A stretch of 64,000 nucleotides of DNA from Panopea generosa (taxonomy: Eukaryota; Mollusca; Bivalvia; Adapedonta; Hiatellidae), in assembly GCA_029582155.1 (NCBI GenBank), contig CM055900.1, positions 42,143,236 to 42,207,235 of the forward strand. Direction: 5' to 3'. Shown piece by piece: positions 23,545-61,825 of the stretch. Position 1 is the stretch's first letter. Each line of letters starts with the position of its first letter. A program made the position numbers and the translations under genes. Below the pieces are notes generated by a model, which had not been told where the DNA came from, ran no database searches, and worked only from the letters and a program-made list of their open reading frames with translations.

Positions 23545-26500
23545 AAAAAATACACTAGACCATTATATAAGATGCATTATCAATAGATTACCACACTAGA
23601 CCATTATGTAAGATGCATTATCAATACATCACCACACTAGACCATTATGTAAGATGCATTATCAATACTTCACCGCTCTAGACCATTATGTAAGATGCAT
23701 TATCAATACATTACTAAACTAGACCATTATATAAGATGCATTGTCAATACATTACTACACTAGACCATTATGTAAGATGCATTTTCAATACATTACTACA
23801 CAAGACCATTATGTAAGATGCATTATCAATACATCACCACACTAGACCATTATATAAGATGCATTATCAATACATTACCACACTAGACCATTATATAAGA
23901 TGCATTATCTATAGATCACCACACTAGACCATTATGTAAGATGCATTATCAATACATCACCACACTAGACCATTATGTAAGATGCATTATCGATAAATCA
24001 CCACACTAGACCATTATGTAAGATGCATAATCGATACATTACTACACTAGACCAGTAGTAAGATGCATTATTGATACATTACTACACTAGACCATTACGT
24101 AAGATGCATTATCAATACGTTACTACACTAGACCATTAGGTAAGATGCATTATCTATACATTACTACACTAGACTATTATGTAAGATGCATTTTCAATAC
24201 ATTACTATACTAGACCATTATGTAGGATGCATTATCAATACATTACTACACTAGACTATTATGTAAGATGCATTATCAATACAACACCACACTAGACCAT
24301 AATGTAGGATGCATTATCAATACATTACCACACTAGACCATTGTGTAAGATGCATTATCAATACATCACTACACTAGACCATTATATCAGATGCATTATC
24401 AATACATCACCACACTAGACCATTATATAAGATGCATTATCAATACATTACCACACTTGACTATTACATTAAATGCATTATTAATACCTCACCACACTAG
24501 ACCATTATATAAGATGCATTATCAATACATCACCACACTACACCATTATTTAAGATGCATTATCAATACATCACCACACTAAACCATTATATAAGATGCA
24601 TTATCAAAACATTACTACACTAGATTATTATGTCAGATGCATTATCAATACAACACCACACTAGACCATTATATAAGATGCATTATCAATAAATCACCAC
24701 AATAGACCATTATATAAGATGCATTATCAATACATTACCATACAACACCAATATATAAGATACATTATCAATACATCACCACACTAGATCATAATGTAAG
24801 ATGCATTATCAATACATTACTACACTAGACCATTATATAAGATGCATTATCAAAATATTTCCACACTAAACCATTATATCAGATGCATTATCAATACATC
24901 ACCACACTAGACCATTATATAAGATTCATTATCAATACATCACCACACTAGACCATTATATAAGATGCATTATCAATACATTACCACAATAGACCATCAT
25001 GTAGGATGCATTATCAGTACATCACCACACTAGACCATTATGTAGGATGCATTATCAAAACATCACCACACTAGACCATTATGATTGATGCATTATCAAT
25101 ACATCGATGCACTTAACCATTATGTGAGATGCATTATCAATTCATCACTACACTAGATCATTGTGTAAGATGCATTATCAATACATTACTATGTTAGACC
25201 ACTATGTCAGATGCATTATCAATACATCACCACACTAGACCATTATGTAGGATGCATTATCAATACATCGCTACACTAGACCATTATATAATATGCATTA
25301 TCAATACATTACCACACTAGACCATTATATAAGATGCATTATCAATACATCACTACACTAGACCATTGTGTAAGATGTATTATCAATACATTACTATACT
25401 AGATTATTATGTAAGATGCATTATCAGTACATCTCTACAATAGACCATTATGTAGGATGCATTATCAATACATCACCGCACTTGACCATTATATAAGATG
25501 CATTATCAATACATTACTACACTAGACCATTATGTAAGATGCATTATCAATACATTACCGCACTAGACCATTATATAAGATGCATTATCAATACATCACC
25601 ACACTAAACCATTATATAAGATGCATTATCAATACATTACCACACTAGACCATTGCATAAGATGCATTATCAATACATTTCCACACTAGACCATTGTGTA
25701 AGATGCATTATCAATACATTACTATACTAGACCATTATATAAGATGCATTATCAATACATCACCACACTAGACCATTATTTAGGATGCATTATCATTATA
25801 TCACCACACTAGACCATTATGTATGATACATTATCAATACATTACCATACTAGACCATTATATAAGATACATTATCAATACATCACCACACTTTACCGTT
25901 ATGTAGGATGCATTATAATTACTTTACAACATTGCACCATTATATAAGATGCATTATCAATACATCACTACACTAGACCATTGTGTATGATGCATTATCA
26001 ATACGTTACTATACTAAACCAGTATGTAAGATGCATTATCAATACATCACCACACTTGACCATTACGTAGGATGCATTATCATTACATTACCACACTAGG
26101 CCATTATATAAGATGCATTATCAATACATATCTACACTTTACCATTGTGTAAGATGCATTATCAATACATATCTATATTAGACCATTATGTAAGATGCAT
26201 TATCAGAACATCTATACACTAGACCATTATGTAAGATGCATTATCAATACATCACCACACTAGACCATTATGTAGGATGCATTATCATTACATTACCACA
26301 CTAGACCATTATGTAGGATGCATAATCAATACATCATTACACTTGACCATTATGTAGGATGCATTATCATTACATTACCACACTAGACCATTATGTAAGA
26401 TGCATTATCAAAACATTACTTTACTAGACCATTATATAAGACATATTATCAATACATCACAACACTAAACCATTATGTAGGATGCATTATCAATGCATCA

Positions 26501-28866
26501 CCACACTAGACCATTATGTAGGATGCATTATCAATACATTACCACACTAGACCAATATATAAGATGCATTATCAATACATCACCACACTAGACCATTATG
26601 TAAGATGGATTACCAATACATTGCCACACTTGACCATTATGTAGGATGCATTCGCAATGCATTGTTACACTAGACCATTATATAAGATGTATTATCAATA
26701 CAATCACCACACAAGACCATTATGTAAGATTCATTATCAATACATCACCACACTAGACCATTATATAAGATGCATTATCAATACATTGCTACATTTGACC
26801 ATTGTGTAAGATGCATAATCAATACATTACTATACTAAACCATTTTGTAAGATGCATTATTAATACATCACCACACTAGACCATTATGTAAGATGCATTA
26901 TCAATACATTACCATACTAGATCATTATATAAGATACATTATCAATACATCACTACACTAGACCATTGTGTATGATGCATTATCAATACGTTACTATACT
27001 AAACCATTATGTAAGATGCATTATCAATACATCACCACACTTGACCATGATGTAGGATGCATTATAATTACATTACCACACTAGACCTTTATATAAGATG
27101 CATTATCAATACATCTCTACACTAGACCATTGTGTAAGATGCACTATCAATACATTACTATACTAGACCATTATGTAAGATGCATTATGAATACATCACC
27201 ACACTAGACCATGATGTAGGATGCATTATCATTACATTGCCAAACTAGACCATTATGTAGGATGCATTATCAATACATCACCACACTTGACCATTATGTA
27301 GGATGCATTATCATTACATTACCACACTAGACCATTATATAAGATGCATTATCAATACATCACCACACTAGACCATTATGTAGGATGCATTATCATTGCA
27401 TTACCACACTAGACCATTATATAAGATGCATTATCAATACATATCTACACTTTACCATTGTGTAAGATGCATTATCAATACATATCTATACTAGACCATT
27501 ATGTAAGATGTATTATCAGTTCATCTATACACTAGACCATTATGTAAGATGCATTATCAATACATCACCACACTAGACCATTATGTAGGATGCATTATCA
27601 TTACATTCCCACACTAGACCATTATGTAGGATGCATAATCAATACATCACCACACTTGACCATTATTTAGGATGCATTATCATTACATTACCACACTAAA
27701 CCATTATGTAAGATGCATTATCAAAACATTACTATACTAGACCATTATATAAGACATATTATCAATACATCATAATACTAGACCATTATGTAGGATGCAT
27801 TATCATTACATTACCACACTAAACCATTATATAAGATGCATTATCAATACATTACTGCACTCGACCATTATATAAGATGCATTATCAAAACATCAGCACA
27901 CTAGACCATTATGTAAGATACATTATCAATACATCACCACACTTGATCATTGTGAATGATGCATTATCATTACATTACCACACTAGACCATTATATAAGA
28001 TGCATTATCAATACATCACCACACTAGACCATTGTGTAAGATGCATTATCAATACATTACTATACTAGACCATTATGTAAGATGCATTATCAATACATTA
28101 CCATTCTTGACCATTATGTAGGATGCATTATCATAATATAAAAACACTAGACCATTATATAAGATGCATTATCAATACATCTCTACACTTGACCATAGTG
28201 TAAGATGCATTATCAATACATTACTATACTAAACCATTATATTAGATGCATTATCAATACATTACCACACTAGACCATTTTGTAAGATGCATTATCAATA
28301 CATCACCACACTAGACTATTATGTAGGATGCATTATCAATGCATCACCACACTAGACCATTATGTAGGATGCATTATCAATACATTACCACACTAGACCA
28401 ATATATAAGATGCATTATCAATACATCACCACACTAGACCATTATGTAAGATGGATTACGTATACATGGCCACACTAGACCATTATGTAGGATGCATTAG
28501 CAATGCATTGTTACACTAGACCATTATATAAGATGCATTATCGATACATCACCACACTAGACCATTATGTAAGATTCATTATCAATACATCACCACACTA
28601 GACCATTATATAAGATGCATTATCAATACATTGCTACATTTGACCATTGTGTAAGATGCATTATCAATACATTACTATATTTAACCATTTTGTAAGATGC
28701 ATTATTAATACATCACCACACTAGACCATTATGTAAGATGCAGTATCAATACATCACCACACTAGACCATTATATAAGCTGCATTATCAATACATTAACA
28801 CACTAGACTATTATGTAAGATGCATTTTCAATACATTACTATACTAGACCATTATGTAAGATTCAA
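23545..28866. repeat. 41-bp satellite-like array, about 130 copies, 5.3 kb
   Basis: The unit is accattatgtaagatgcatta, tcaatacatcaccacactag. Variants at fixed positions (tgtaagat / tataagat / tgtaggat; catcaccac / cattactac) mark subfamilies. Rare private variants recur at exact multiples of 41: tctacacttt at 26131 and 27444 (32 units), acatttgacc at 26791 and 28636 (45 units), gtgtatgatgcat at 25983 and 26968 (24 units). Blocks of many units were therefore duplicated. Both array ends are abrupt. Confidence 0.97.
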
Positions 28867-31149: not shown

Positions 31150-32690
31150 AACTTACGTCATTATGTTTTCAAAACCCATATAAATTTACTAATTTTGAAA
31201 TATTAGAAAATGAAAGTGATGAATGGATCAAGTTACTTCCTGTTAACAATACTTGTGGTCACAGAATGCTTAAACTTGTTTCTAAAACGGTTTCGAACCC
31301 TCTTTCAATTTTATATTAAAGATCACTAAATGAAGGATATCTGCAAGATAGCAAATGTGACATCTATTTTCAAAAAAGGTGACAAATCCTTACAGTCTTA
31401 CTAAACACTACTAAGCTAATGTAGTAAACTTTTTGAAAGGTTAGTTTTCAACAACATGTACATTTTCTTTCTTTTACTATAGGTATCAGTCTGGATTTTT
31501 ACATTATCATTCTACTCTACATATCAGCTCGAAGTAAAGATCATCATATTTGTCAAACATTTGATAACAATCAGTATTTATGTATGGTCTTTTGTGATAT
31601 TTCGAAAGCTTTCGACAGCGTTTAGCACCGTGGATTGTTATTTAAACTTAAAAAAAAATGGTATAGATGGCACCTTTTTAAACTGGTTAACCAATAATTT
31701 AAATAATATATCACATTCAGTTGTTTTTCAAGCCACTGAATCAAGTTAGTACTGGAGTTGCCGAAGGTTCGGTCCTTGGTCCTCTATTGTTTTTAATCTA
31801 TGTAAATGACATAGAAGACTCATTGCTTAGTTTAATCTGTCTATATGCTGACAACAGTTCTGTATATTTTTTCTGCTGCATCAGTTCAAGATATTGAAGG
31901 TATCACTCATCACGATTTAACAATAATTTGTGGACTGAAAATGGTTGGTCAATTTTAACCCAAATAAAACAGAAGCTATGCCTTTTTCATTTAGAGGTTA
32001 TGACTCTTTACCAAGTCTTTATTTTAACAATGTACCAATATATTTTGCTGATTCTCTCAAACATCTAGGACTAACTTTTAGGAATGATGGCAAATGGACA
32101 GAGAATATAGAACATAGTTTGTGTTCAGAATCTAAAATAATAGGTTTTATGCGAAAACTTATATATTCCATAGGGATAAAAGCTCTTAATGTATTTTCGT
32201 ATATTTGAATTTTAGAATTATCATTCCTGGCTTGGAGAGGTTGCACTGCAAGGATTGTAACAGGTCTTACACGATCAGCATCATTGGAAAAACTATATAA
32301 AGAATGTGGATGGGATGGGAAAGACATAACAACACTATTATTTAATGTACGAAGTAGATATATAAGGTACCATCCTATATAATTATAGCTTAAGAAATAG
32401 GAATGATTAATCTGTACCATACTCAAGAACTGAAATAATGAGAAAGTCACATATTCCCTCTTCAATATCATTATGGAACCAGTTGGATTCCAATTTTAAA
32501 TCCACACCTTCTCTTTTAGCCTTTAAACAAAGCATTAATAATAGTATGTGTATTTGTCCTAATTGTGGCTCTATTGAAGATGTTGAACATTATTGAAGCA
32601 GAAATTATTTTAATAAAAGATTGGAAACCCTTCTTGATTTCTCCCAAAGTATCCTTATATGGGACAACTGTTTGACGTATATATGGAAAA
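31150..32690 (+). pseudogene. LINE reverse transcriptase relic
   Basis: Broken frames preserve the order of a non-LTR reverse transcriptase: I-A-N-V-T-S-I-F-K-K-G-D-K-S (about 31350), C-D-I-S-K-A-F-D-S-V (31590-31620), G-V-x-x-G-S-V-L-G-P-L-L-F-L-I-Y-V-N-D (31755-31810) and Y-A-D-N-S-S-V-Y in place of the usual F/Y-A-D-D catalytic box (31846-31870). Then comes a thumb-like stretch with H-L-G-L-T (32065-32080). The 3' part has A-R-I-V-T-G-L-T-R-S and a cysteine-histidine motif C-P-N-C-G-S-I-E-D-V-E-H (32555-32593), as in several LINE ORF2 ends. Stops and frameshifts are frequent, and the second catalytic Asp is Asn, so it is inactive. Confidence 0.9.
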
Positions 32691-38439: not shown

Positions 38440-38990
38440 TGACAAAGCTTTTTCATTTTTAGTACCACATCACGATAGCACCTTCCAGTCACACTCGTAC
38501 CCTTGTTTACCGTACCTGTATTACTAAACCTTCAACAGAGAAAAAAGTGCATGAAGAATCATCTTTATACTCAAGGTCTGCTGGCAATGACTGGCCTTCT
38601 TCCATGTTTGGTAGCCTATATTTTGCTCCCATCCTTTCATACTGGTTCAAAATAGTGTACCCAGGTTTCGTCACCAGTGACACAATTTGCAATTGCCCTT
38701 GGTTATATTCAGGGAACATTTTAAGCATTTTTTTCGCAGTTTCAACACATGCCTTCTTTTGGTCGTCAATTAATAGGTGGGGCACCCACCTAGCAGAAAT
38801 GTTCATGATTTATTTTTTTCAAAACGAAATGAACTGAAGATAGTGACACGCCTGTAACACGTGCTTTATCACGAATATTATATCACGCATCATTTCGAAC
38901 AATTCCTCTAATTTTAGACACGATTTTCTTACATGTTGCTGTCTTTGGCCGACCAGATTTTGCTGCATTTTGAACAGACTCTACACGTGT
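38440..38990 (-). pseudogene. mariner transposase relic
   Basis: On the minus strand the order is mariner-like: S-G-R-P-K-T-A (about 38950), an HTH-like I-R-D-K-A-R-V-T-G-V-S-L-S-S-V-H (38840-38890), N-I-S-A-R-W-V-P-H-L-L-I-D-D-Q-K-K-A (38750-38806), then G-D-E-T-W-V-H-Y-F-E-P in a shifted frame near 38650-38680, and S-V-T-G-R-C-Y-R-D-V-V-L near 38460-38490. The first catalytic Asp (GDE) survives only out of frame. At least two frameshifts and stops make it non-functional, and the C-terminal catalytic part is missing. Confidence 0.9.
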
Positions 38991-48984: not shown

Positions 48985-49650
48985 GGGTCGAATGTTGCCA
49001 TATCAACTACCACGCGTTGTGTGTGCGACCTGTCAGAAAGGCTTCAATGCAATCCAGAGTATGGTCGCTGATACCATAGTGGTGTAGCTTGGTGTGCAGA
49101 CTACTGTGAACGATAAAGTCGTGCTTTTTTCTTCTTCGGTCCAGTGATCTGACGAGCTCGTCGGTCAGTGTAAGTAGCTGAGTTTCGCAGCTCCGTCATC
49201 TTCTAAACCCGTGCTGGCAATCAATGAGAATGTTGTGTTTGTCAAGGTGTCGCATTATATTGCTGACGATGATATGTTGCAGCATCTTGCAAGGTATACA
49301 GGTGAGCAACACAGGTCTATAGTTGTTGGCCTTGAACCTCTCCCCTTTTTTGTTGATTGCGGGCACATTGGCCTTCTTACAAACATCTGTAATACTGCCA
49401 CTGGACAGGCATTTCCTGTCGATGACGCATATATATGGTGCACATTGCTCTGCCATCTCTCTGAGGATGCGTGCAAGGATTATGTCTGGTCCAGTTGCCT
49501 TCTGGGGATTAAGTTTCCTGAATAAGGTAAGTATTCATTCAGCAGTGATGTCTATATCTGGCAAAGAAGGGGATGGTTCGCCCTCCGGTGTTGGCATGCT
49601 GGATTTGTCCTCCTTGGTGAAACCTGGTTGTCATTGTCTGTCGAGGATGG
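48985..49650 (-). pseudogene. LINE reverse transcriptase relic (second family)
   Basis: The minus strand shows, in order, G-F-T-K-E-D (about 49620), K-A-T-G-P-D (49490-49510), A-N-V-P-A-I-N-K-K-G-E-R-F-K-A-N-N-Y-R-P-V-L-L-T-C (49300-49380), L-I-D-C-Q-H-G-F-R-R (49196-49230), then, after a stop, S-C-E-T-Q-L and L-D-R-R and H-D-F-I-V-H (49080-49180), and H-H-Y-G-I-S-D-H-T-L-D-C-I-E (49030-49080). These are the N-terminal half of a jockey-like reverse transcriptase domain. The catalytic Y/F-A-D-D part is absent. Stops and frameshifts make it inactive. Confidence 0.88.
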
Positions 49651-55924: not shown

Positions 55925-56790
55925 ACATTGCCAGCATTCCCAGCTTATAAGAACATCGTGTCAACAATCCAGCCTTGCAGAACACTGTGGCAACAATCCA
56001 AACTTGCAGGATACTTAGGCAGTATTTTAAGTTTGCAGGCCACTGTAATCTTTCTCAAAATGTAGAACACTTATTCCCCTAGCTTGTAGGACAATATGTC
56101 AGTATTCTTAGCATGCAGGACATTGTTTTAACAATCCAAGCTTGCAGGACACTGTGTCAACAATCCAAGCCTGCAGGACACTGTGTCAACAATCCAAGCT
56201 TGCAGGACACTGTGTCAACAATCCAAACTTGCAGGACACTGTGTCAACAATCCAAGTTTGCAGGACCCTGTGTCAACAATCCAAACTTGCAGGACACTGT
56301 GTCAACAATCCAAGCTTACAGGACACTGTGTCAACAATCCAAGCCTGCAGGACACTGTGGCAACAATCCAATCTTGCAGGACACTTTGGCAGTATTCCAA
56401 GTCTTCGGGACACTGTAAGCTTTCTCAAAATGTAGGGCACTTATTCCCTTCCACTTGTAGGACACTGTGGCAACAACCCAAACTTGCAGAACACCTTGGC
56501 AACAATCAAAACTTGCAGAACACTGTGTCAACAATCCAAACTTGCAGGACACTGTTGCTGAATTCTAAGTTTGCGGAACATTGTAAGGTTTCTCAAAATG
56601 TAGGACACATATTCCCCCAGCTTGTAGGACACTGTGTCAGTGTTTCCAGCATGTAGGACATTGTTTTACCAATCCAAGCATGCAGGACACTGTGTCAACA
56701 ATCCAAGCTTGCAGGACACTGTCAACAAGCCAAGCTTGCAGGACAATGTGTCAACAATCCAAGCTTGCAAGACACTGTATCTATGTGAAA
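55925..56790. repeat. 29-bp minisatellite starting at the WDR59 stop
   Basis: The unit is acactgtgtcaacaatccaa, gcttgcagg. About 20 clear copies are interrupted by a longer spacer containing tttctcaaaatgtag, at 56051, 56421 and 56589. The first unit begins six bases beyond the WDR59 stop codon, so the array would lie in the 3' UTR. The 12-mer gacactgtatct occurs in the last exon (56840-56851) and in the first unit (56771-56782). Confidence 0.93.
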
Positions 56791-56795
56791 GAACT

Positions 56796-56923
56796 TCAAA
56801 ATGGATTCAACTTTAGACATTGACATCCGCAGCCAGTGGGACACTGTATCTCGTATGTAAACCATTCTTTCATATGACTGGCATGACCACCGTGACCACA
56901 GTTCAGACAGAAGTTGGAGGTTC
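56796..56923 (-). CDS. WDR59: WDR59, last coding exon
   Basis: WDR59 is a subunit of GATOR2, which acts at the lysosome in amino-acid signalling to mTORC1 by opposing GATOR1. After the 3' splice site tgattgtttcag (56935-56924), two bases complete a Gly codon. Then come T-S-N-F-C-L-N-C-G-H-G-G-H-A-S-H-M-K-E-W-F (residues 1-21 of the exon) and a tail E-I-Q-C-P-T-G-C-G-C-Q-C-L-K-L-N-P-F before TGA (56798-56796). The Cys/His spacing C-x2-C-G-H-G-G-H-x2-H and C-P-x-G-C-G-C-x-C is the C-terminal zinc-binding RING-like end shared by GATOR2 WD-repeat subunits, and fits WDR59 better than WDR24 or Mios. The phase-1 intron matches the preceding exon. Tail length matches the family. Confidence 0.9.
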
Positions 56924-58488
56924 CTGAAACAATCATTTACAGAATATACATGCAGGTAAAGGTTTTCATTACTTCAATATTTTTTTCACATTATTTCCCT
57001 TGTATGTAGTGATGTATGCCAGTGTTATATTGTTTTTTATAATATAATGGTTAAAATAACTTTTTATCTGCCTTGAGGACAGATGTCCGACAGAAGGGCC
57101 AGAAATTTACCTTCAACACTTACGACAGATGAAAAATAAAAATTCTTTTTTTTCCTAAAATGGGCATGTTTATGACGGACAACACAGTAGAAGGCTGGTA
57201 ATTGACATGCACACCTTAATGACAGATGACAGTAATTTTTACATACCTCGCACAACTTTATGACATGATACATCCAAAAGACTGTAATATATAAATATTT
57301 CTACTAAATCTCTTCGACAGATGGTACTCTGAACAACCAGTTATTTGCACATACCTCTAGAACCTTTATAATAAATGATGCACTGAAAGGTCTTTATTAC
57401 TACATACCCGGATACAATTTTTATAGATGACACTGAAATGCCTGTAATTTGTACATACATGTAACTGTTATATCTTTCTGACAGATACCACACGACAAGA
57501 CAAGTAATTTATATGTACCTTGGACACCTTTACTGTGGATAACACACTGACCGACCTTTAAGTTGTACATGGACATACCTCGGCAACATTCACTTCAGAT
57601 AACATACTGAAATACCTTTAAGTTATACCGATCTCAGCCACCTTGATGACAGATAACACACTAAAATGCCTATAAGTTGTACATACCTCCGCCACCTTCA
57701 TGATAAATAACACTGAAAGGCCTGTAATTTATACATACCTCGGACACCTTTACGACAGATAACATACTGAAATGCCTGAAAGTTGTACGTATCTCAGACA
57801 CCTTCACGACAGATAACACACTGAAATGCCTGCAAGTTGTACGTACCTTGGACACCTTTATGATGGATAACATGAAATGTGTGTAAGTTGTATGTACCTC
57901 GGACACCTTTACAACAGATAAGACACTAAAATGCCTGTAAGTTGTACGTACCTGTGACACCTTTACGACAGATATGACACTGAAATGCCTGTAAGTTGTA
58001 CATACCTACGACACCTTTTCAAAAGATAATACACCAAAATGCCTGTAAGTTGTACATACCTCGGCCACCTTTATGACAGATAACACACTGAAATGCCTGT
58101 AAGTTGTAAGTACCTCGCACACCCTTACGACAGATAAGACACTGAAATGCCTATAAGTAGTACGTACCTCAGACACCTTTACGACAGATAAGACACTGAA
58201 ATGCCTGTAAGTTGTACGTACTTGGACACCATTACAACAGATAACACACTGAAATGCTTGTAAGTTGTACTTTCCTCGGCAACCTTAACAACAGATAACA
58301 CACTGAAATGCCTGCAAGTTGTACGTACCTCAGACACTTTTACGACAGATAACACACTGAAATGCCTGTAAGTTGTACATACCTCGAACACCTTTATGAC
58401 AGATAACATGAAATGTGTGTAAGTTGTATATACCTTGGTCAACTTTACAACAGATAACAACATTGAAATGCCTGTAAGTTGTACGTAC
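56924..58488 (-). other. WDR59 last intron, mostly tandem array
   Basis: The phase-1 intron of 1,565 bases runs from the donor gtacgtac at 58488 to the acceptor tttcag ending at 56924. All but about 150 bases at the acceptor side is the 54-bp array. Confidence 0.85.
57080..58488 (-). repeat. 54-bp array made of a WDR59 exon end plus splice donor
   Basis: On the minus strand the unit is gcatttcagtgtgttatctg, tcgtaaaggtgtctgag, then gtacgtacaacttacag. The first 37 bases copy the last 37 bases of the WDR59 exon at 58489-58596 (which reads gcatttcag...gtccgag), and the last 17 copy the start of the intron with its GT donor. Around 15 clear units lie between 57660 and 58488; decayed ones reach about 57080. 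Most copies keep a GTAC/GTATGT donor word. The exon CGA codon is TGA in many copies, as expected of CpG decay. Copies get more diverged with distance from the exon. Confidence 0.93.
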
Positions 58489-58596
58489 CTCGGACACCTT
58501 TATGACATATAACACACTGAAATGCCTGCATTTTACATGTGCCACATTTCACACCACGGACCTCCGCCTTACAATGATGACACTGCACACCAAATT
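58489..58596 (-). CDS. WDR59: WDR59, penultimate coding exon
   Basis: This 108-base exon sits between the acceptor gattttccttccag and the donor cgag|gtacgtac, both in phase 1. It reads (E)-F-G-V-Q-C-H-H-C-K-A-E-V-R-G-V-K-C-G-T-C, then K-M-Q-A-F-Q-C-V-I-C-H-K-G-V-R-(G). The three cysteine pairs (C-H-H-C, C-G-T-C, C-V-I-C-H) start the zinc-binding domain that the last exon completes. Spliced, the join gives V-R-G-T-S-N-F-C, as expected for WDR59. Its 3' end and donor are the source of the 54-bp array in the following intron, so the true donor must compete with many copies of itself. Confidence 0.92.
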
Positions 58597-58750: not shown

Positions 58751-58791
58751 CATTATGTGATGTGATTTATGATAAATCACATCACATAATG
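58751..58791. repeat. Perfect 19-bp-arm palindrome
   Basis: The arm cattatgtgatgtgattta, loop tga and arm taaatcacatcacataatg are perfectly complementary. It lies in the WDR59 intron between the exons at 58596 and 59098, 53 bases from a MITE. No target-site duplication is obvious. Confidence 0.9.
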
Positions 58792-59097: not shown

Positions 59098-59240
59098 CTA
59101 TTCCAGCATGAGGTTCTGGTGGAATGGTCACATGCTTCAATATATGTGCAGACTGGTTACGCAGTCCCCATCTATACAGAATATCTGCATACACTCGTAG
59201 GTAATGGTCATACTGTGGATATTTAGATGGGTCCAACATC
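59098..59240 (-). CDS. WDR59: WDR59, third-last coding exon
   Basis: After the acceptor catgtgtatttcag the 143-base exon gives M-L-D-P-S-K-Y-P-Q-Y-D-H-Y-L-R-V-Y-A-D-I, then L-Y-R-W-G-L-R-N-Q-S-A-H-I-L-K-H-V, then T-I-P-P-E-P-H-A-G-I, and ends at the donor aatag|gttggtac in phase 1. The Y-A-D-I-L-Y-R-W-G-L helix just before the zinc-binding part is typical of WDR59. Joining to the next exon makes A-G-I-E-F-G-V-Q-C. The apparent ATG at the start is internal, not an initiation codon. The exon needs a preceding exon that ends in phase 2. Confidence 0.9.
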
Positions 59241-61144: not shown

Positions 61145-61825
61145 TAGCTCAGGAAACATTTCATTTCCATAGCTCAGGAATAGTTCCATCAGTCAAGAAA
61201 CATTTCAACAGCTCATGAATAGTTCCAAAGCTCAAGAAACATTTCAATAGTTCAGGAATAGTTTCATCAGTCAAGAAATATGTCAATACCTCATGAATAG
61301 TTCCAAAGCTCAAGAAACATTTCAATAAATCAGGAATAGTTTCATCAGTCAAGAAATATGTCAATACCTCATGAATAGTTCCATAGCTCAAGAAACATTT
61401 CAATAGTTCAGGAATAGTTCCAAAACTAAAAAAACATTTCAATAGTTCATGGATAGTTCCATAGCTCAAGAAACATTTCAATAGTTCAGGAATAGTTCCA
61501 TCAATCAAGAAACACTTCAACAGCCCAGAAATAGTTCCATAGCCCAAGAAACATTTCAATAGTTCAGGAATAATTCCATAGCTCAAGACAGATTTCAATA
61601 GTTCAGGAATAGTTCCATCACTCAAGAAACATTTCAAAAGCTCAGGAATAGTTCCATAGCTCAAGAAACATTTCAATAATTCAGGAATAGTTACATCAGT
61701 CAAGAAACACTTCAATAGCTCAAAAATAGTTCCATAGCTCAAGAAACATTTCAGTAGTTCAGAAATAGTTCCATAGCTCAAGAAACATTTCAATTGTTAA
61801 GGAATAGTTCCATCAATCAAGATTT
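61145..61825. repeat. 39-bp minisatellite array, about 17 copies
   Basis: The unit is atagttccatagctcaagaa, acatttcaatagttcagga. Variants catcagtcaag and catagctcaag alternate in places, giving a 78-bp dimer. A minus-strand frame stays open for 210 codons with 13-residue repeats (P-E-L-L-K-C-F-L-S-Y-G-T-I). The period is a multiple of three and no splice sites or domain are evident, so I treat it as non-coding. It lies upstream of the recognised WDR59 exons and may be in an intron. Confidence 0.93.

Follow-up and report, generated by a model that had tools for sequence, protein, structure and literature searches.

Duplicated copies of an exon edge and its splice donor fill most of the last intron of WDR59 in the bivalve Panopea generosa

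Tandem repeats that multiply splice sites have been described before. In the interferon-induced human 6-16 gene (IFI6), a minisatellite provides multiple splice donors (Turri, Cuin and Porter 1995), and a passage citing that work states that IFI6 mRNAs use two downstream repeat units as donors. In UBC and VCX3A, tandem repeats carry dual-specific AG|GT sites that are used both ways (PMC10809524, which counts 792 human introns in 262 tandem repeats). Introns themselves can arise by tandem duplication: an intron was made in the potato RNA-dependent RNA polymerase gene by a tandem duplication over an intron-exon boundary (PMC4974935), and intron gain by tandem duplication is described in Drosophila (PMC2891723; reviewed in PMC3443670). 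Here, we describe a 54-bp tandem array in the last intron of WDR59, a GATOR2 gene, in a 64,000-nt stretch of the Panopea generosa genome (hereafter the window, which sits on contig C7; all positions refer to it). Its unit joins the end of a coding exon to the splice donor and the start of the intron, and the likeliest reading is that the array is a passive accident, of a kind already known.

The last intron of WDR59 (58488-56924, minus strand, 1565 bp, acceptor TTTCAG|G) consists of tandem array over 91% of its length. Alignment to a circular 54-bp unit yielded 23 full units between 58488 and 57247, followed by a partial unit at 57246-57226, and a two-unit profile detected decayed remains reaching 57071, with an envelope to 57064 (nhmmer E 6e-5), in keeping with the roughly 25 units of a preliminary description of the locus. 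Tandem Repeats Finder (TRF) reported a head-to-tail core with a period of 54, 17.4 copies and 81% matches, which fits the minisatellite unit range of 10-100 bp. The unit, GTACGTACAACTTA plus CAGGCATTTCAGTGTGTTATCTGTCGTAAAGGTGTCCGAG, comprises the last 40 nt of the penultimate coding exon and the 14 intron nt that follow, among them the donor, and the array is contiguous with the exon; the composition first proposed, exon end plus donor, was thus borne out, its 37 exon and 17 intron bases becoming 40 (CAG and the 37) and 14.

Exon positions 58528-58489 are identical to the unit consensus at 38/40 positions; at one of the two remaining positions the exon has A where 21/23 units have C, and at the other it has A where 14/23 units have G and nine have A. 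This likeness is above chance, as had been claimed: the array (57064-58480) aligned to the exon (58489-58596) with a score of 70, compared to a mean of 18.2 (standard deviation 2.4) for 200 shuffles of the exon. A search of the 1.474-Gb genome (39 contigs) with the junction sequence returned at least 15 matches, and all those listed lie inside the last WDR59 intron. The presence of an exon-edge repeat array in this intron is hence confirmed, and the features of the locus are as follows.

59098..59240, minus strand: preceding WDR59 exon; edges read from the sequence, with a protein match.
58489..58596, minus strand: penultimate WDR59 coding exon, 108 nt long; the exon part of the unit stems from its final 40 nt (58528-58489).
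58483..58491, minus strand: true splice donor GAG|GTACGT, 7/9 consensus matches; fixed by the conserved protein reading VRG|TSNF.
57247..58488, minus strand: array core of 23 full 54-bp units from wraparound alignment; TRF reports 57596-58528, period 54.
58445..58447, minus strand: stop codon TAA of unit 1, in the reading frame of the exon; terminates the products of all downstream donors.
57064..57246, minus strand: partial unit and decayed unit remains (nhmmer: two matches at E 6e-5, one at 0.012).
56924..57063, minus strand: intron tail with no detectable unit similarity; real acceptor TTTCAG.
56799..56923, minus strand: last coding exon of WDR59; stop TGA at 56798-56796.

The gene assignment made at the outset stands. 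When joined, the three C-terminal exons matched the WDR59 chain 7uhy_D (E 1.7e-51, residues 849-970 of 974) better than the WDR24 (7uhy_C, E 1.8e-13) or MIOS (7uhy_A, E 9.8e-6) chains; the top match, 9dx0_D (E 7.7e-52), is labelled SEC13 homolog and has the same aligned letters as 7uhy_D. Residues 74-123 of the 127 encoded match Pfam zf-RING_16 (E 1.5e-11). Searched against the genome, the joined exons hit nine places at E up to 1, namely the three exons, four array units (E 0.2-0.85) and weaker places on contigs C1 (E 1e-7) and C16 (E 5e-7); the latter are probably the related genes WDR24 and MIOS, of which only the C1 place can be read as such. As a separate observation, the intron preceding the 58596-58489 exon holds a perfect inverted repeat, read by eye at 58751-58791, with 20-nt arms and a 1-nt spacer.

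Within the units, the exon-derived part has accumulated 27 synonymous, 94 missense and 11 stop changes, which fit neutral expectation (p 0.70) under a test in which CpG transitions were weighted threefold by assumption; these counts exclude the partial last unit and the remains past it. Third codon positions were changed least, the opposite of coding constraint, and CpG columns account for 50/176 changes. The pattern of change fits neutrality without coding constraint, and the neutral-like changes together with the stops rule out a coding array.

We then scored donor quality as matches to a nine-position consensus. Among the 23 junctions downstream of the true donor, GT is kept in 19 and lost in four, and 15 combine GT with at least the 7/9 matches of the true donor, one of them, at 57951 (CAGGTACGT), reaching 8/9. 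Most copies carry a donor-like GAG|GTACGT or GTATGT in the original exon context, in agreement with the row of putative donors first reported. Sites of at least true-donor quality number 17 in the 1433-bp array, true donor included, and 42 on the minus and 37 on the plus strand of the 45,433 non-array bases.

Because unit 1 carries a stop, use of any downstream junction is predicted to give the same truncated C-terminus: translation would end at TAA 58447-58445, in a protein ending GVRGTYNLQAFQCCYLL, with 13 residues in place of the last 41 and the zf-RING_16 match interrupted. From this stop, 11 nt would remain up to the last junction if the first downstream junction were used, and 62-1198 nt with each of the 22 others. 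By the usual 50-nt rule of nonsense-mediated decay (NMD), most such mRNAs would be NMD targets.

RNA folding was also considered as a means of hiding donors and was rejected. The sequence GUACGUAC is self-complementary (-9.7 kcal/mol; -12.5 kcal/mol with its neighbours), and predicted local folding gave unpaired probabilities of 0.0026 for the true donor, 0.0216 on average for the decoys and 0.0124 as the median of all 9-mers; since the true donor and the decoys are both buried, folding separates nothing.

The history of the units is less simple than first supposed. The copies nearest the exon had been called the best preserved, and identity to the exon does fall across the 23 units (Spearman -0.60, p 0.003); however, the first 17 show no gradient (rho -0.14, p 0.58), so that the last units carry it, and the exon part of unit 1 is 82.5% identical to the exon, compared to 95% in unit 8, the best. 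A tree built from the exon and all 23 units groups the decayed distal units (15 and 19-23) together with support 89, and close to the base of this split the exon attaches on a short branch; the node that would separate it from the remaining units has a support of 29, other deep nodes being likewise unsupported. Growth had been proposed to start at the exon edge; in the tree, the exon is not the neighbour of unit 1. Units 2 and 12 have a rare haplotype in common (support 91), indicating that growth was at least partly internal, and a lag of ten units gave the highest mean identity among units 1-17 (0.831, compared to 0.778-0.828 for other lags), which hints at block duplication at that lag.

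The age of the intron can be approached through P0004, an exon-bounded open reading frame of 67 amino acids from a relative (E 1e-15 with the exon as query); with the array as query, none of the other proteins in a set of 2536 candidates fell below E 0.001. P0004 reads the same exon and then EYNYEGYIHVS*, which indicates an intron at this position in the relative, the exon being followed by no unit; the opening codons of that intron are loosely like GTACGTACAACTTA, as expected of an inherited intron start. With a positionally matching intron of unrelated start in this relative, the last WDR59 intron is probably older than the array. Proteins P0001-P0003 read VRGTSNFC, VKGASNFC and VRGPCNFC continuously across the position, which is expected whether the intron is old or was born from the array.

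Taken as a whole, the sequence makes it probable that the array is a minisatellite that originated by duplication across an old exon/intron junction, grew within the intron and changes near-neutrally, its decoy donors being mostly ignored. A tandem duplication would have copied a 54-bp segment straddling the 3' edge of the exon and the start of the existing intron, the array would have grown inside the intron through duplication of units and blocks, and it would now be decaying without coding constraint. The true donor would be used nearly always, since it comes first and bounds a 108-nt exon whose upstream acceptor is rich in pyrimidines, while an occasional slip to a copy would give an mRNA that ends at the TAA of unit 1 and is, for the most part, a probable NMD target, with near-neutral consequences for the organism.

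Three observations weigh against this explanation. P0004 shows only the first codons of its intron. Non-CpG columns of the donor core were changed in 8/137 cells, compared to 118/950 elsewhere (p 0.022), a weak hint of constraint that we do not read as selection, the difference from adjacent intron columns (19/183) having p 0.16. Finally, 10/13 positions agree between the unit's intron part and the beginning of the last exon, a likeness that a pure exon-plus-intron origin leaves unexplained.

The slightly less changed donor core would be expected if the array were functional, its donors competing with the true one so that part of the WDR59 pre-mRNA ends up in truncated forms, most of them prone to NMD, and array length tunes GATOR2 and hence mTORC1 signalling. 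The 15/23 downstream junctions that equal or exceed the true donor in consensus matches agree with this, as do the 22/23 tabulated junctions, four of the 23 having lost GT, that leave 62-1198 nt between stop and last junction. However, those four losses of GT, the similar rate of change in neighbouring intron columns, the ongoing decay of the distal third and the failure of predicted accessibility to distinguish the true donor from the decoys all argue the other way, and we consider a regulatory role unlikely.

The likeness to the last exon is instead predicted if the intron was born from the array. The unit would then represent 18 codons of a once continuous, QAFQCVICHKGVRGTSNF-like coding sequence spanning what is now the last exon-exon junction; tandem duplication would have created AG|GT sites, one of which became the donor, and the intron would have arisen from the copies, of which most of it would still be made. 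In line with this, the unit of 54 = 3 x 18 nt is in codon phase with an open consensus, the donor end of the intron derives from unit copies, the intron length equals 29 x 54 minus 1 bp, and the candidate WDR24 paralogue on C1 reads through the equivalent position with no intron. The 10/13 match lies between GTACGTACAACTT and the start of the last exon, GAACCTCCAACTT, in a comparison made post hoc; eight array units reach it, and beyond the array only 17 others do among about 128,000 13-mers counted over the two strands. Intron gain would need relatives that lack the intron, whereas P0004, the one relative at hand, has it at the corresponding position and lacks a unit next to the exon. Furthermore, likeness of the acceptor end to the unit is not clear (p 0.45, 0.16 and 0.088), and column 11 is A in the most decayed units (5/6, the sixth gapped), lowering the likeness to the last exon there. 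The published cases of intron gain have tandem duplication with AG|GT in common with WDR59, whereas the WDR59 intron seems older than its array. An origin of the intron from the array is thus quite unlikely; if true, the locus would document the birth of a spliceosomal intron in a well preserved state.

Units could also be spliced in as mini-exons, or their AG|GT edges could act as acceptor and donor in stepwise, recursive removal of the intron. AG|GT stands at most unit edges, and such sites are used in UBC (PMC10809524). The AG sites scored in the units, in some of them a later AG than the acttacag noted originally, are preceded by 31-62% pyrimidines (31-56% for the unit-edge AG), compared to 81% at the real acceptor of the 108-nt exon, although the real acceptor of the last exon, at 56%, falls within the decoy range. 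The gap of 17 nt from a donor to the next AG leaves too little room for an intron, except where splicing passes over units, and inclusion of 37 nt would shift the frame. The 37-nt mini-exons of the preliminary description are therefore weakly supported and appear unlikely, and we regard the two possibilities together as highly improbable. An assembly artefact or chance resemblance is practically negligible, given that the units are mutually distinct with private indels and the exon likeness far exceeds that of shuffles (70 compared to a mean of 18), even though assemblies can mis-size tandem arrays, nothing specific in favour of this having been found here.

The abundance of repeats around the locus favours the explanation by duplication across an existing junction. 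The window contains 13 arrays covering 29% of its length, the largest at 23552-28862 with a 41-bp unit in 129.5 copies, and the next 60 kb hold about 14 more arrays of at least 100 bp. A survey of 50 kinase-domain loci (30 of 136 matches, many of them long single-exon frames, plus 20 hand-chosen from the rest) found 24 arrays occupying 5.8% of 180,786 bases. Four lay within 150 bp of the matched stretch and were compared with the exon stretch (p 0.55, 0.885 and 0.915, and 0.03 at locus L031, arising from one 13-mer). Clearly exon-derived arrays numbered zero among the 50 loci, a sample too small and ill-chosen to give a rate. Taking about 200,000 exon ends and 40-bp units, a density of 5.8% would, as a rough estimate, lead by position alone to about a thousand arrays founded on exon ends, or some 0.5% of exon ends.

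Several other repeats were observed nearby. A 29-bp array of 24.6 copies (56081-56778, minus strand) fills the 3' untranslated region of WDR59 directly after the stop, and its start has an exact 12-mer, AGATACAGTGTC, in common with the last coding exon (p 0.001-0.028 depending on the target, post hoc), making it possibly a second exon-derived array in this gene. Upstream of the last WDR59 exons, a 39-bp (13-codon) array at 61162-61813 on the minus strand contains an open minus-strand frame of 211 amino acids (61164-61796), an openness that probably reflects nothing more than a unit length divisible by three. Fragments resembling mariner transposase and reverse transcriptase were noted by eye at 38510-38809 (minus), 49199-49534 (minus) and 31939-32205 (plus). 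Upstream of the window, an 81-amino-acid minus-strand frame beginning ILKLLSKYHFLHDHYIQ occurs in three near-identical copies at 551-bp spacing (L010:1100-2444; G000:C7:42218335-42219679), a tandem duplication of longer period.

The locus illustrates that an array can grow within a conserved gene from the edge of one of its exons, and it offers a natural test of splice-site choice, in which 15 donor copies of equal or better match stand in near-original exon context behind the true donor; RNA could show how far first position and exon definition outweigh donor sequence. Among the six titles listed by a search of open-licence papers that named WDR59, none deals with an array of this sort, other GATOR2 genes not being searched. 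The novelty claimed in the preliminary description, which knew of no minisatellite with a unit spanning a coding exon/intron junction in a GATOR2 gene, was nevertheless overstated, a donor-multiplying minisatellite having been published for IFI6 in 1995. As expected of an IFI6-like, donor-multiplying minisatellite, the WDR59 array adjoins an exon and has a unit that contains the exon end and its donor; the two differ in gene, animal and sequence, and WDR59 has 23 units of 54 bp whose copies are only putative donors. UBC and VCX3A likewise have a tandem repeat with AG|GT at the unit edge (PMC10809524), but their units are coding and their sites are used both ways, whereas those of WDR59 are neutrally changing intron units with putative sites. 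With the IFI6 and polyubiquitin arrays as precedents, the WDR59 array therefore belongs to a known kind.
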